Position numbers and translations under genes: made by a program. A DNA stretch of 29,110 bases from a virus. The notes beneath the pieces were generated by a model. That model was not told the DNA's origin. It saw nothing but the letters and a program-made list of their open reading frames with translations, and did not search any database. The stretch lies in the IMG/VR virus record IMGVR_UViG_3300044904_000164, positions 1 through 29,110 of that record. The stretch is one strand, 5' to 3'. Below are positions 2,337 through 5,873 of the stretch, in pieces. Within the stretch, counting starts at the first letter, position 1, and each line of letters opens with the position of its first letter.

Positions 2337-2786
2337 ATGCCTAGCGCGATGCTGAGGGGGTGCCTCGCACAAGGATGCGCTGCACTCGTGGAGCGCGGCT
2401 ACTGCGCCGAGCATGCACCCGGGGCCGCACGCGCGCGAGACGACGGACGCGCCACGCCCACCGAGCGCGGCTACACGTCCTCGTGGCGGCGCTTCCGACT
2501 GCGCTTCGGACATCTCTTGATTTCCCATGGGATTGTGCCGGCCTGTGGATCTGCGCTCCCGGGAGGTCCCCTCATGCGGGAGAGCCGATGCAGGGCCGAG
2601 GGGCTCGTGAACAACCGGGACCTGCACCTGCACCACGACCCGCCGCTCACCGCAGCCGAGCGTAAGAACAAGCGGGCCGTAGAAGACCCGATGCGCTGCG
2701 GACTCTTGTGCAGATCGTGCCACTCGGCGGCCACGGCGAGGGCGATGGGGCATAACAGTGCAAGTGACAGGGGGATATACACTTAG
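2337..2786 (+). CDS. HNH endonuclease of the packaging module
   Basis: A 149-residue protein with an N-terminal cysteine cluster (CLAQGC at 9-14, then GYCAEH) and a C-terminal HNH fold: RGYTSSWRRFR, the LHLHH motif at 96-100 and CGLLCRSCH at 121-129, with the Cys125-x2-Cys128 zinc pair. HNH proteins next to terminase genes in HK97-like phages are known to be needed for terminase cutting of packaged DNA. The position directly before the small terminase fits that role. It could instead be a free-standing homing endonuclease. The 109 bases before it (2228-2336) and the 94 bases after it (2787-2880) hold no gene I can support. Confidence 0.85.
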   Translation: MPSAMLRGCLAQGCAALVERGYCAEHAPGAARARDDGRATPTERGYTSSWRRFRLRFGHLLISHGIVPACGSALPGGPLMRESRCRAEGLVNNRDLHLHHDPPLTAAERKNKRAVEDPMRCGLLCRSCHSAATARAMGHNSASDRGIYT

Positions 2787-2883
2787 CGGTCTTGGTCAAC
2801 ACGGCGCCAAGGTACCGCACTGGCTCAACAGCTCGCGCACGGACAGGTTCCAATGTGCCTGACGGGTTCAAAGAGAGGCCGTG

Positions 2884-3438
2884 ATGGGCGGTAAGGGCAG
2901 CGGCGGCGCGCGTCTCGGTTCGGGTCCCTCCCGGAAGGTCGGCTCCGTCCGATGGCAGCGCGAACAGCGGCGCCTGAGGCACTCTCCAAGGGCCGAAAGC
3001 GTTCGGAAAGCATCCCCGATCGCGTCTGTGCCAAAGCCGAAGGACCTCCCGGCGGGCCAGTCGGCCGTGTGGGACATGCTGGCGCCCCACGCGCTGGCGC
3101 AGCGGACCCTAACGCCTGCGACGGCCTTCGCGTTTCGGGAGTTGTGCGAGGCCGTCGTGTTGAAGCGTGACGTGCTGGCTGTCGTCGAGCAGGACGGGCT
3201 GATGCAGAACCGGCTGAGCACGAAGATGGACCAGGACGGTGGCGGGGAGCAGGTCTTCGAGAGCAAGGCGCACCCTCTGATCGCGAAGTGGACAGCACTC
3301 CTGGTCCGCGTCGAGGCCGGGCTGACGAGATTTAGGCTTTGTCCGATGGGCAAAGAACTAGCGCTGGTTGAGGAAGTCAAGGACGAGTGGGCGGAATTCG
3401 ACGTTCCGTTGAGCGTGATTCAGGGCGGGAAGGCATAG
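2884..3438 (+). CDS. terS: Terminase small subunit (P27-like)
   Basis: Starts at ATG 2884, five bases after GAGAGG (2873-2878); GTG 2881 in the same frame is less well spaced. The 184-residue product begins with a Gly/Lys/Arg-rich tail (GGKGSGGARLGSGPSRK). An alpha-helical middle with LPAGQSAVWDMLAPHAL and a segment ending in LTRFRLCPMGKELAL follow, as in P27-type small terminases that recognise phage DNA and load the large subunit. It lies between the HNH gene and the large terminase, the usual HK97-type order. The gene ends at an amber TAG. The same frame then stays open for 26 codons and encodes a helix-turn-helix-like segment, described separately. Confidence 0.85.
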   Translation: MGGKGSGGARLGSGPSRKVGSVRWQREQRRLRHSPRAESVRKASPIASVPKPKDLPAGQSAVWDMLAPHALAQRTLTPATAFAFRELCEAVVLKRDVLAVVEQDGLMQNRLSTKMDQDGGGEQVFESKAHPLIAKWTALLVRVEAGLTRFRLCPMGKELALVEEVKDEWAEFDVPLSVIQGGKA

Positions 3439-3519
3439 CGAACGCTTGCGCGTGAGTATGGCGTGGCTCGAAGCAATGTCGGCCTCATCGTTACCGGTAA
3501 GACCTGGGTGGCCGCATGA
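3439..3519 (+). other. In-frame helix-turn-helix-like remnant after the terS amber stop
   Basis: Immediately after the TAG of terS, the same frame encodes 26 codons ending in a TGA that overlaps the ATG of the large terminase. The predicted segment includes LAREYGVARSNVGLIVTGKT followed by W. This is the pattern of the small helix-turn-helix seen at the end of many phage HNH or regulatory proteins. It has no start codon of its own. It may be the decayed end of a lost gene, or a C-terminal extension of TerS made by amber readthrough. The resemblance is by eye only. Confidence 0.4.
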
Positions 3520-5873
3520 CCGACCCGATCACGGCCTACGCGCAAGACGTCGTGGACGGGAAGATCCCGGCCGGGAAGTTCCACGTACTTGGATGCAGGC
3601 GGCACCTCCGCGACATGGCGCGACAGGGCGCGGCAGGGTGTCCGTTTCGGTTTGACGTCGGGAAGGCCGAGAGGTTCTTCCGCTTCGCCGAGAAGCTGAA
3701 GCATTACAAGGGGAAATGGGCGGGGACGCTCATCCACCTCGAGCCGTGGGAGAAGTTCATCGCCGGGAGCGTCGTCGGATGGGTTCATGTCGAGACGGGT
3801 CTTCGCCGATTCAGAACCGCACTGGTGCAGGTGCCCCGCAAGAACGGAAAATCGCTCTTGGCGGCCATCGTGCTGCTTTACGTGACGTTCTTCGATGACC
3901 CGCCTGAGCCCGGGGCGCTTGGTGTCTGCATTGCAACGAAACGCGACCAGGCGAAACTCGTCTTCGAGGATGCAAAACAACTTGTGAAATCGTCGGGCCT
4001 CAAGCGTCGCATCACGGTGCAAGTGGCCAGTCTGCACCGTGACGACACGGCATCAAAAGCTGAACCGCTCGGGGCCGATCACGACGTTGCCGATGGACTC
4101 AATCCCAGTTTCGTTTGCGTTGACGAGATGCACGCGATGAAGGATCGCGGCCTGTTGGACGTCGTTGAGACTGCGACCGGCGCGAGAGAGCAGCCGGTGA
4201 TCTTCGAAATTACGACGTTTGGAAGTGAGCCGGTATCCCCATGGGGCGATCAAAACGACTACTCGCAGAAGATTCTCGAAGGAGTGCTGGTAGACGAATC
4301 GTTCTTCGTGTTCACGGCCCATGCCGACTCTGTTGCTTACGACGCCACATACCAATTTGACAGAGCGTTGCGTGAACTGGTCGAAGGTTGCTCATGTCGA
4401 TTAATGGAATTGGACGTCCCAAAACTTACGACTCCGCCCCAGCCTGCCATCCAGCCAGAAAGTCCTTCTGTCGGGGGTTGTGCAAGCCTTGCTATGACAG
4501 ATGTCTTAGAGATAGAGACCCCGGCTATCAGGCTAGGCAGCGGGCCAACGTCCGGGCGTGGACAATCCGAAATCCGGAGCGCGTCAGCGCAAGCCGGGAT
4601 AGATGGGCTAGGGAGCACCCAGACAAGGTTAAGGCGTCCCGTAGGAAAGGCCATCTTAAAAGAGACTTTGGAATCTCAGTCGAAGAGTACGACCGACTGT
4701 ATTCAGCACAGCATGGACGGTGCGGCATTTGCTCCGTCGAATTTGACGTGCTTGCCGTGGACCACTGCCACAATTCGCTCAAGATTCGCGGATTGCTTTG
4801 CAAACCCTGCAATGCCGGACTCGGATTTCTCGGAGATTCTGAAGTCGGCGTACAGCGAGCACTCGACTACCTGCGCCGTGAGGAGACATCGTGTTGACGG
4901 TCCATCGCTGATTGTAAGGATAGAGCCTGACGACTGGACGTTACCCGAGACAGCTCAGAAGGCGAACCCGAATTATGCCGTGTCGGTGAGCCCTGAAGAC
5001 CTGGCCGCGAAGGTGTTGAAAGCGAAGGGCATCCCGTCCGCTGCGGCCTCATACAAGATCAAGCACCTCAACCTGTGCGTGTCGGCGGCGAATCCCTGCC
5101 TCTCGGTGGACGGCTGGCGTCGCGGCCAGAACCCCGCCGCGCTCAGCCGAGAAGCGTGGCTCGCGGAACTGGACCACGCCGTCTGTTTCGCCGGTATCGA
5201 CCTCGCCAGCAAGCTGGACCTGTGCGCGCTCTCGCTCGTCTTCCCTCCGGCCCCAGGCCGCGCGTCGTGGCGAGTGATTCAGCGGATCTGGACGCCCGCC
5301 GAGACGCTCGTGGATCGGGCGCATCGCGACCGGGCTCCGTATGGCATCTGGCGCGATCAGGGCTGGCTCACCGCGACCGAAGGTACACAGATCGACCACC
5401 AATTGATCCGCGCGGTGCTCATCGAGGCCCGCGAGAAATACGACCTGCACTTGTGCGGCTTCGACCCCTGGCACGCCGACACGCTCGTCACGCAACTGAA
5501 GACTGAAGACGGCTTCGGCGAAACGCAGGTGCTCGGCATCCCACAAACGTATGGGGGCATGTCGAGTGCGTGCCTGAAGATGCAGGCCGAGATCGCCTCG
5601 GGGACTATCGACGCCTTCGGGTGTCCGGTCACGGCGTGGTCGGTGTCCAACGTGGTCGACAACCACGACGGGAAGGGCAACCTGATGTTCGCCAAGGGTA
5701 AGAGTCGCGGGCGAATCGATCCCGTCATCTCGGCCACGATCGGCATGTCGCTCGCGTTGAAATTCGGATGGGCCGTTCAACCGAAGCCCCGTCGTCGTGG
5801 CGTCGCGAAGATCTGGCAACCCGGGGTCGGCTTTGTGCCGGCCGTTCCCGAGGAGTCACAGCCCCATGCGTAA
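3516..5873 (+). CDS. terL: Terminase large subunit, interrupted by an in-frame endonuclease insert
   Basis: The packaging motor ATPase and nuclease. The ORF encodes 785 residues. The ATPase half has Walker A VPRKNGKS (106-113) and Walker B FVCVDEMHAM with Asp203/Glu204. The nuclease half has FAGIDLASKLD with Asp562, CGFDPWHADT, and a C-terminal RIDPVISATIGMS. Residues about 272-469 (nt about 4329-4925) match nothing expected of a terminase and separate FFVFTAHAD from PDDWTLPETAQKANPNY, which are normally nearly adjacent. Without this block the protein would be about 587 aa, normal for the family. The block keeps the terminase frame open but carries an endonuclease gene in another frame. The gene may need splicing or be inactive. 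Confidence 0.9.
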   Translation: MTDPITAYAQDVVDGKIPAGKFHVLGCRRHLRDMARQGAAGCPFRFDVGKAERFFRFAEKLKHYKGKWAGTLIHLEPWEKFIAGSVVGWVHVETGLRRFRTALVQVPRKNGKSLLAAIVLLYVTFFDDPPEPGALGVCIATKRDQAKLVFEDAKQLVKSSGLKRRITVQVASLHRDDTASKAEPLGADHDVADGLNPSFVCVDEMHAMKDRGLLDVVETATGAREQPVIFEITTFGSEPVSPWGDQNDYSQKILEGVLVDESFFVFTAHADSVAYDATYQFDRALRELVEGCSCRLMELDVPKLTTPPQPAIQPESPSVGGCASLAMTDVLEIETPAIRLGSGPTSGRGQSEIRSASAQAGIDGLGSTQTRLRRPVGKAILKETLESQSKSTTDCIQHSMDGAAFAPSNLTCLPWTTATIRSRFADCFANPAMPDSDFSEILKSAYSEHSTTCAVRRHRVDGPSLIVRIEPDDWTLPETAQKANPNYAVSVSPEDLAAKVLKAKGIPSAAASYKIKHLNLCVSAANPCLSVDGWRRGQNPAALSREAWLAELDHAVCFAGIDLASKLDLCALSLVFPPAPGRASWRVIQRIWTPAETLVDRAHRDRAPYGIWRDQGWLTATEGTQIDHQLIRAVLIEAREKYDLHLCGFDPWHADTLVTQLKTEDGFGETQVLGIPQTYGGMSSACLKMQAEIASGTIDAFGCPVTAWSVSNVVDNHDGKGNLMFAKGKSRGRIDPVISATIGMSLALKFGWAVQPKPRRRGVAKIWQPGVGFVPAVPEESQPHA
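4329..4928 (+). mobile_element. Insert of about 600 bp inside the large terminase gene
   Basis: Bounded by the terminase codons for FTAHAD (ending 4328) and for PDDW or DDW (starting 4926 or 4929). The length is a multiple of three, and the terminase frame has no stop across it. It contains a complete endonuclease VII-like gene with its own ribosome binding site, leaving only about 65 bases before and 30 after. By eye it is less GC-rich than the surrounding sequence. I see no convincing group I core (P3-P8, P7 pairing), and the flanks are too short for an ordinary intron. One possible group I boundary (T at 4329, G at 4929) would restore ADYDW, but P1 pairing is not evident. Exact ends are uncertain by a few codons. 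Confidence 0.7.
4394..4897 (+). CDS. Endonuclease VII-like HNH homing endonuclease nested in terL
   Basis: A 167-residue protein in a different frame from the terminase. ATG 4394 follows GAAGG (4383-4387) by six bases, so it can be translated independently. The N-terminal third has CRGLCKPCYDRC, a basic linker rich in RNPE/REHPDK repeats follows, and then the recombination endonuclease VII domain: GISVEEYDRLYSAQHGRC, zinc pairs Cys110-x2-Cys113 and Cys136-x2-Cys139, and DHCHN at 123-127 carrying the catalytic His. The ending GLGFLGD and ALDYLRRE is typical. Free-standing proteins of this family are common phage homing endonucleases that cut uninterrupted alleles so the insert spreads by repair. 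All key residues are present, so it may be active. Confidence 0.9.
   Translation: MSINGIGRPKTYDSAPACHPARKSFCRGLCKPCYDRCLRDRDPGYQARQRANVRAWTIRNPERVSASRDRWAREHPDKVKASRRKGHLKRDFGISVEEYDRLYSAQHGRCGICSVEFDVLAVDHCHNSLKIRGLLCKPCNAGLGFLGDSEVGVQRALDYLRREETSC

Follow-up and report, generated by a model that had tools for sequence, protein, structure and literature searches.

Gene order at the locus and the insert in terL

The window, by which we mean the whole stretch of DNA that was analysed, is a 29,110-base virus contig from IMG/VR, assembled from a metagenome; its virus is uncultured. The gene order is that of a head-tail module, with an HNH gene, TerS, TerL, portal, S49 protease, capsid and tail genes in succession, and a sigma-factor-like gene lies at the left end (547-1155; phrog_351, 2e-18). 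The position of the HNH gene beside TerS resembles that in phages whose HNH protein helps packaging. The features on which the analysis turns are as follows.

2337-2786: HNH endonuclease gene, just upstream of TerS (phrog_144, 4e-14)
2881-3438: TerS gene
3516-5873, + strand: terL, a single frame of 785 codons running through the insert (PF03354, PF20441; phrog_9, 2.7e-129)
3516-4328, + strand: N half of TerL, the ATPase domain with Walker A/B and coupling motif, ending ...FFVFTAHAD (alignment of 19 homologues)
4329-4928, + strand: interval of 200 codons, 198 inserted plus two variable native codons
4383-4387, + strand: Shine-Dalgarno-like gaagg, 6 nt upstream of the endonuclease VII (EndoVII) ATG (from the sequence)
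4394-4897, + strand: EndoVII-family gene, 167 aa, out of frame with terL (PF02945, 8.8e-20)
4878-4880, + strand: TerL-frame GTG, 17 nt upstream of the EndoVII stop, a candidate restart for the C half
4929-5870, + strand: C half of TerL, the linker from DDW and then the nuclease domain (PF20441)

Uninterrupted homologues read ...FFVFTAHAD-xx-DDWTLPETARKANPNYG... across this region. In the window HAD ends at 4328 and DDW starts at 4929, with 200 codons (4329-4928) where the relatives have two, so that the extra sequence amounts to 594 nt, or 198 codons, its exact edge being ambiguous within the two variable codons. HAD-xx-DDW or its equivalent is found in about 20 relatives (55-76% identity) and in about 130 more distant ones, and Pfam places the TerL_ATPase (PF03354) and TerL_nuclease (PF20441) domains on either side of the insert. 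An earlier note on this DNA had described about 200 extra codons between terminase motifs, with both halves intact, and had proposed the homologue alignment; that alignment confirms the presence and position of the insert, puts the number of codons at exactly 198 and fixes the junctions to within two codons.

Among 153 TerL loci, the window included, 148 are uninterrupted, one (L049) is frameshifted and carries no insert, and the window is the only one with an insert. In three of the 153, one half alone could be matched, so that both halves were readable in 149 homologues, 148 of which are insert-free. The frameshifted locus (L049, 435-2211) has its TerL in two overlapping frames, through a frameshift or an assembly error. 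A scan with the C half of TerL returned distant homologues only. When the insert DNA was compared with phages the only match was one of 61 bases, in a Gordonia EndoVII gene, and the peptide that the TerL frame specifies there was unmatched at E ≤ 1 among 50,697 phage records and belongs to no Pfam family. The possibility that the insert is a genuine TerL domain, for which the earlier note had suggested looking among homologous terminases, is rejected on these grounds: none of the 148 uninterrupted TerLs has the residues, and the peptide is unmatched in the phage records.

The nested endonuclease gene and the open host frame

The EndoVII reading frame starts at an ATG at 4394 and stops at TGA (4895-4897), giving 167 residues. 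Its protein matches PF02945 (8.8e-20), phrog_2914 (3e-33) and, by profile, T4 endonuclease VII, and its catalytic residues are intact, including the zinc-binding CxxC pairs and the DHxH...CN core (here DHCH and the final N). The gene was described at the outset as a complete endonuclease in another frame with its own ribosome binding site, and the Pfam match and the gaagg at 4383-4387 bear this out. Its product is predicted to be an active nuclease. The reading frame fills 167 of the 198 insert codons, leaving about 65 nt of the insert upstream and 25-31 nt downstream, and the TerL frame is the EndoVII frame +1. This DNA-cutting gene is probably selfish.

The TerL frame is open throughout the insert, as the earlier note had it: the host frame has no stop codon, against 15 and 3 in the two others. 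An open TerL frame of this length has P = 0.00025 under mononucleotide shuffling. Given the EndoVII protein, the probability rises to 0.046 when the gene is recoded synonymously with the codon usage of the window, and to about 0.06 when its own codons are permuted; the divisibility of the insert length by three adds a further chance factor of one third. Taken alone, then, the case in the window is only modestly unlikely by chance.

Recurrence in other genes

Further cases were sought by searching for EndoVII relatives and then testing each for a host frame covering it. A scan of bacterial genomes with a single EndoVII query found no relative; an EndoVII alignment as the query yielded 13 loci, of which two lie within TerL inteins. 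The richest set lies in a family of SNF2-type helicases, where one site holds seven distinct frame-preserving inserts (L145, L165, L171, L177, L181, L182/L183 and L187), alongside 70 uninterrupted loci and one that is split. Another site in the same family has a frame-preserving EndoVII insert of its own (L340/L341), and a gene of the dGTP diphosphohydrolase type (dGTP_diPhyd_N; L361) contains an out-of-frame EndoVII insert that keeps the host frame. The occurrence is sporadic at the helicase site, and in terL the insert of the window is a single case. The split helicase (L004) is interrupted by EndoVII with a stop and then an ATGA restart.

The nucleases in the helicases occupy either of the alternative frames, and homologous EndoVII genes do not always share one (L182 differs from L145 and L187), yet the frame-preserving inserts always leave the host frame open. 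In L165 the nuclease start has been lost while the helicase frame is still open, and this insert looks like a decayed remnant.

Six TerL inteins also carry an out-of-frame EndoVII. Three are in Gordonia phages Angelicage (L074) and Fosterous (L077) and Mycobacterium phage Phlyer (L078), and the others (L148, L324 and L331) are in one IMG/VR contig and two MAGs. The three phage genes are annotated as terminase only, despite the nested EndoVII. The TerL of L331 (1509-5081, from a Candidatus Berkelbacteria MAG) seemingly has two intein/Hint regions, and an EndoVII frame of 260 codons is nested in the first. We found no discussion of EndoVII nested in TerL inteins in the literature that we searched, which did not extend to preprints, and no priority is claimed.

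When synonymous codons were permuted within each gene, the 13 nested genes together gave p = 6e-7 for open host frames, a figure to be read as a guide and not as an exact probability because some of the genes are related. The excess of open host frames is strong. The intein cases were found via open frames and are biased for this statistic. The helicase inserts, on the other hand, were found by homology of both flanks, so that out-of-frame ones could have turned up; the only one known, L004, was found via its nuclease. The L361 insert, examined later, has p = 0.00075 for its open host frame by itself.

State of the terminase

The motor and nuclease residues of TerL that are invariant among its relatives are kept in the window. 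Departures from otherwise invariant columns number 5 of 112 in the N half and 4 of 89 in the C half, within the range of the uninterrupted relatives, and no decay was seen at invariant positions. AlphaFold2 predicts residues 1-272 and 471-756 well for the most part (pLDDT mostly 80-95, in the C half to 750) and places insert residues 273-467 below pLDDT 50, with a pTM of 0.54. Among solved structures the best match is the HK97 TerL (6z6d), and the protein has what an HK97-type large terminase has, namely both domains, ATPase and nuclease, with the motor and catalytic residues conserved. The insert lies after the strand FFVFT and before the linker helix.

Composition along the gene is uneven. 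Codons 121-271 of TerL (3876-4328) have a GC3 of 0.66, versus 0.84 elsewhere in TerL (p = 1.8e-5, with boundaries chosen post hoc), and the nearest relatives seemed to switch, yet other relatives are equally patchy. An imported tract 5' of the insert is conceivable, but a co-conversion tract around the insert is not claimed, the group-informative-site test being null (p = 1.0 for the window).

One alternative is that the insertion inactivated terL, so that packaging is wrecked, the virus is defective or a dead copy was assembled. A stretch of 198 disordered residues beside the motor could well abolish packaging, and the window is a single case among TerLs. Set against this are the preserved frame and catalytic residues, the lack of decay at invariant positions and the intactness of the rest of the head-tail module, and we regard inactivation as unlikely. 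An inactivating insertion of very recent date would look no different, so the activity of TerL is something that we infer.

Searches for introns and inteins

A second alternative is self-splicing: the insert would be an intron of an unusual kind carrying the EndoVII reading frame, and its removal from the mRNA would leave TerL free of any loop. The search with Rfam group I and group II models that the earlier note had recommended was carried out; it gave no match at E ≤ 10 in 4200-5060 (861 nt), and across the whole window nothing reached the gathering score. The models without a match at E ≤ 10 include RF00028, which represents the conserved group I catalytic core. The positive controls, all of group I, were recovered: T4 td at 40.3 bits in a search of comparable size, and, in a 65-kb search, T4 nrdB at 35.7 bits and the EndoVII-bearing group I intron of L121 at 54.5 bits. 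Rfam sensitivity is imperfect and unusual introns can be missed, since td was missed in the 65-kb search. Folding of the insert RNA gave no more structure than in shuffled sequences (z = 0.45).

The L121 locus (2739-3327) is a group I intron (RF00028, 54.5 bits) that carries an EndoVII reading frame and interrupts a capsid-like gene. The insert had been judged to lack the length for a group I intron together with an ORF, a claim that fails here: L121 packs both into about 590 nt. The length argument is accordingly dropped, and it is the RNA search, not the length, that argues against an intron. The same locus speaks for an intron insofar as it shows that EndoVII does occur in one of similar length, and a junction after TCT would fit, weakly, the group I rule of U before the intron and G at its end. 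A spliced element, by contrast, needs neither an open host frame nor a length divisible by three, and the terL insert and the seven helicase inserts have both. Together with the empty search, this makes an intron quite improbable.

An intein, or a degenerate one, is rejected. An intein would be recognised by a Hint or intein splicing domain, by an initial C or S, and by a final N with C, S or T after it. Pfam found no intein or Hint domain in the TerL of the window, whereas PF14890 was found in the six other EndoVII-bearing TerLs, only some 30 codons of the insert lie outside the ORF, and the residue after the insert is E or P. The earlier opinion that the terminase-frame peptide is not an intein was thus correct.

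Split or domesticated genes as alternatives

Another reading takes terL to be a split gene, in which the C half would be restarted near the EndoVII stop (at GTG 4878, or at 4980 or 4986) and the two halves would assemble. A precedent of sorts is provided by the L004 helicase, split by EndoVII with its stop and ATGA restart, and GTG 4878 lies 17 nt ahead of the EndoVII stop. These three GTGs in the TerL frame also correct the earlier statement that there is no start codon near the junction, though none has an obvious Shine-Dalgarno sequence. Without a stop to end the N half, the read-through fusion would still be produced, and an open frame of 198 codons would be unnecessary; this reading appears very unlikely.

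Least probable of all is a domesticated EndoVII, a nuclease of the packaging module that would trim or debranch DNA on behalf of the terminase and be kept inside terL for co-expression: T4 EndoVII does resolve branched DNA ahead of packaging, and EndoVII adjoins the terminase genes in Arthrobacter phage MargaretKali, but none of the 148 uninterrupted TerLs contains the gene, a separate HNH gene lies beside TerS in this virus, and the same nesting is found in helicases and a nucleotide hydrolase.

Proposed explanation

The reading that we favour, with a probability of roughly two in three, is that the insert is a mobile EndoVII gene of the homing type that needs neither RNA nor protein splicing and is read through by its host. 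The gene sits out of frame in the variable two-residue loop that ends the TerL ATPase domain, and EndoVII would be made from its own Shine-Dalgarno sequence and ATG. Ribosomes starting at 3516 would read through the insert to give a TerL of 785 residues, in which a disordered loop of 198 residues joins the last strand of the ATPase domain (FFVFTAHAD) to the linker helix. The nuclease may cut the uninterrupted terL of co-infecting phages, and repair would then copy the insert in. The only survivors would be insertions divisible by three with a stop-free host frame. Of the options that had been listed at first, a tolerated protein insertion is the best supported, by the lack of an intron signal where controls gave one, the kept frame, the AlphaFold2 domains and the lack of decay; an intron and wrecked packaging have fared worse.

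Two links in this explanation call for caution. Site-specific homing by the EndoVII family is not a given, because T4 EndoVII is structure-specific. Also, since neither a second terL with the same insert nor an uninterrupted sister strain was found among the 153 TerL loci, we infer mobility at the terL site from the other loci.

Comparison with known systems

The closest published parallel is the ShiLan domain, in which an HNH gene is inserted out of frame in a methylase of an actinophage, one that the authors called non-essential (PMC11855218; earlier PMC9957025). Both inserts are in frame and of about 200 codons, have no stops in the host frame, are mostly filled by an endonuclease and have the same relative frame; neither has a detectable intron or intein, and the host-frame product of each is predicted to be unstructured. 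The ShiLan authors likewise expected no splicing and a loop (PMC11855218). The systems differ in the host gene, an essential packaging motor in the window and a dispensable methylase in ShiLan, and in the nuclease, EndoVII (PF02945) as opposed to HNH_3 (PF13392), although the subfamily is arguably not defining; the published Pacc40 case also differs from ShiLan in nuclease subfamily. They differ, too, in the nuclease start, which has a Shine-Dalgarno sequence in the window and no detectable ribosome-binding site in ShiLan (PMC11855218). The virus of the window is uncultured, and the further cases found here, unlike ShiLan, extend beyond actinophages. With a segment in frame and absent from homologues, an open host frame, and an HNH/His-Me nuclease filling most of it, the terL insert resembles the out-of-frame endonuclease insertions of the ShiLan type and may, by analogy, be placed with them.

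The TerL inteins with nested EndoVII share with the window an EndoVII inside terL, the same relative frame and an open host frame. In them the nuclease lies within the intein, whose splicing domain (PF14890) would restore TerL, whereas the window has no intein. The group I intron of L121 shares the nuclease family, the location in a head gene and a length of about 590 nt, but it matches RF00028 and breaks the host frame, and the window does neither.

In phage Aeh1, nrdA is reportedly split by the free-standing homing endonuclease MobE. This case and the L004 helicase are like the window in that a nuclease of the homing type has inserted as an ORF only, with no intron. In both of them the host gene stops and restarts, while in the window the host frame is continuous.

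Implications

If the favoured reading is true, an essential motor works with a loop of 200 residues arising as a by-product of the code of another gene, and splicing is not needed for a selfish gene to spread through essential genes. Annotation will miss such nucleases and take the antiframe peptide for domains. The phenomenon described in 2025 in a dispensable actinophage methylase would be extended to a second nuclease family and to further hosts, namely TerL, helicases and a nucleotide hydrolase, in uncultured viruses well outside the actinophages. Whether genes of the EndoVII type constitute, next to introns and inteins, a third and widespread class of intervening element is in our view an evenly balanced question. 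Such an element would be a homing gene free of splicing that persists only where an alternative frame is open; the host protein, even one as essential as a packaging motor, would tolerate about 200 antiframe residues, and selection would keep the frame, which could outlast the nuclease itself, as L165 may illustrate.
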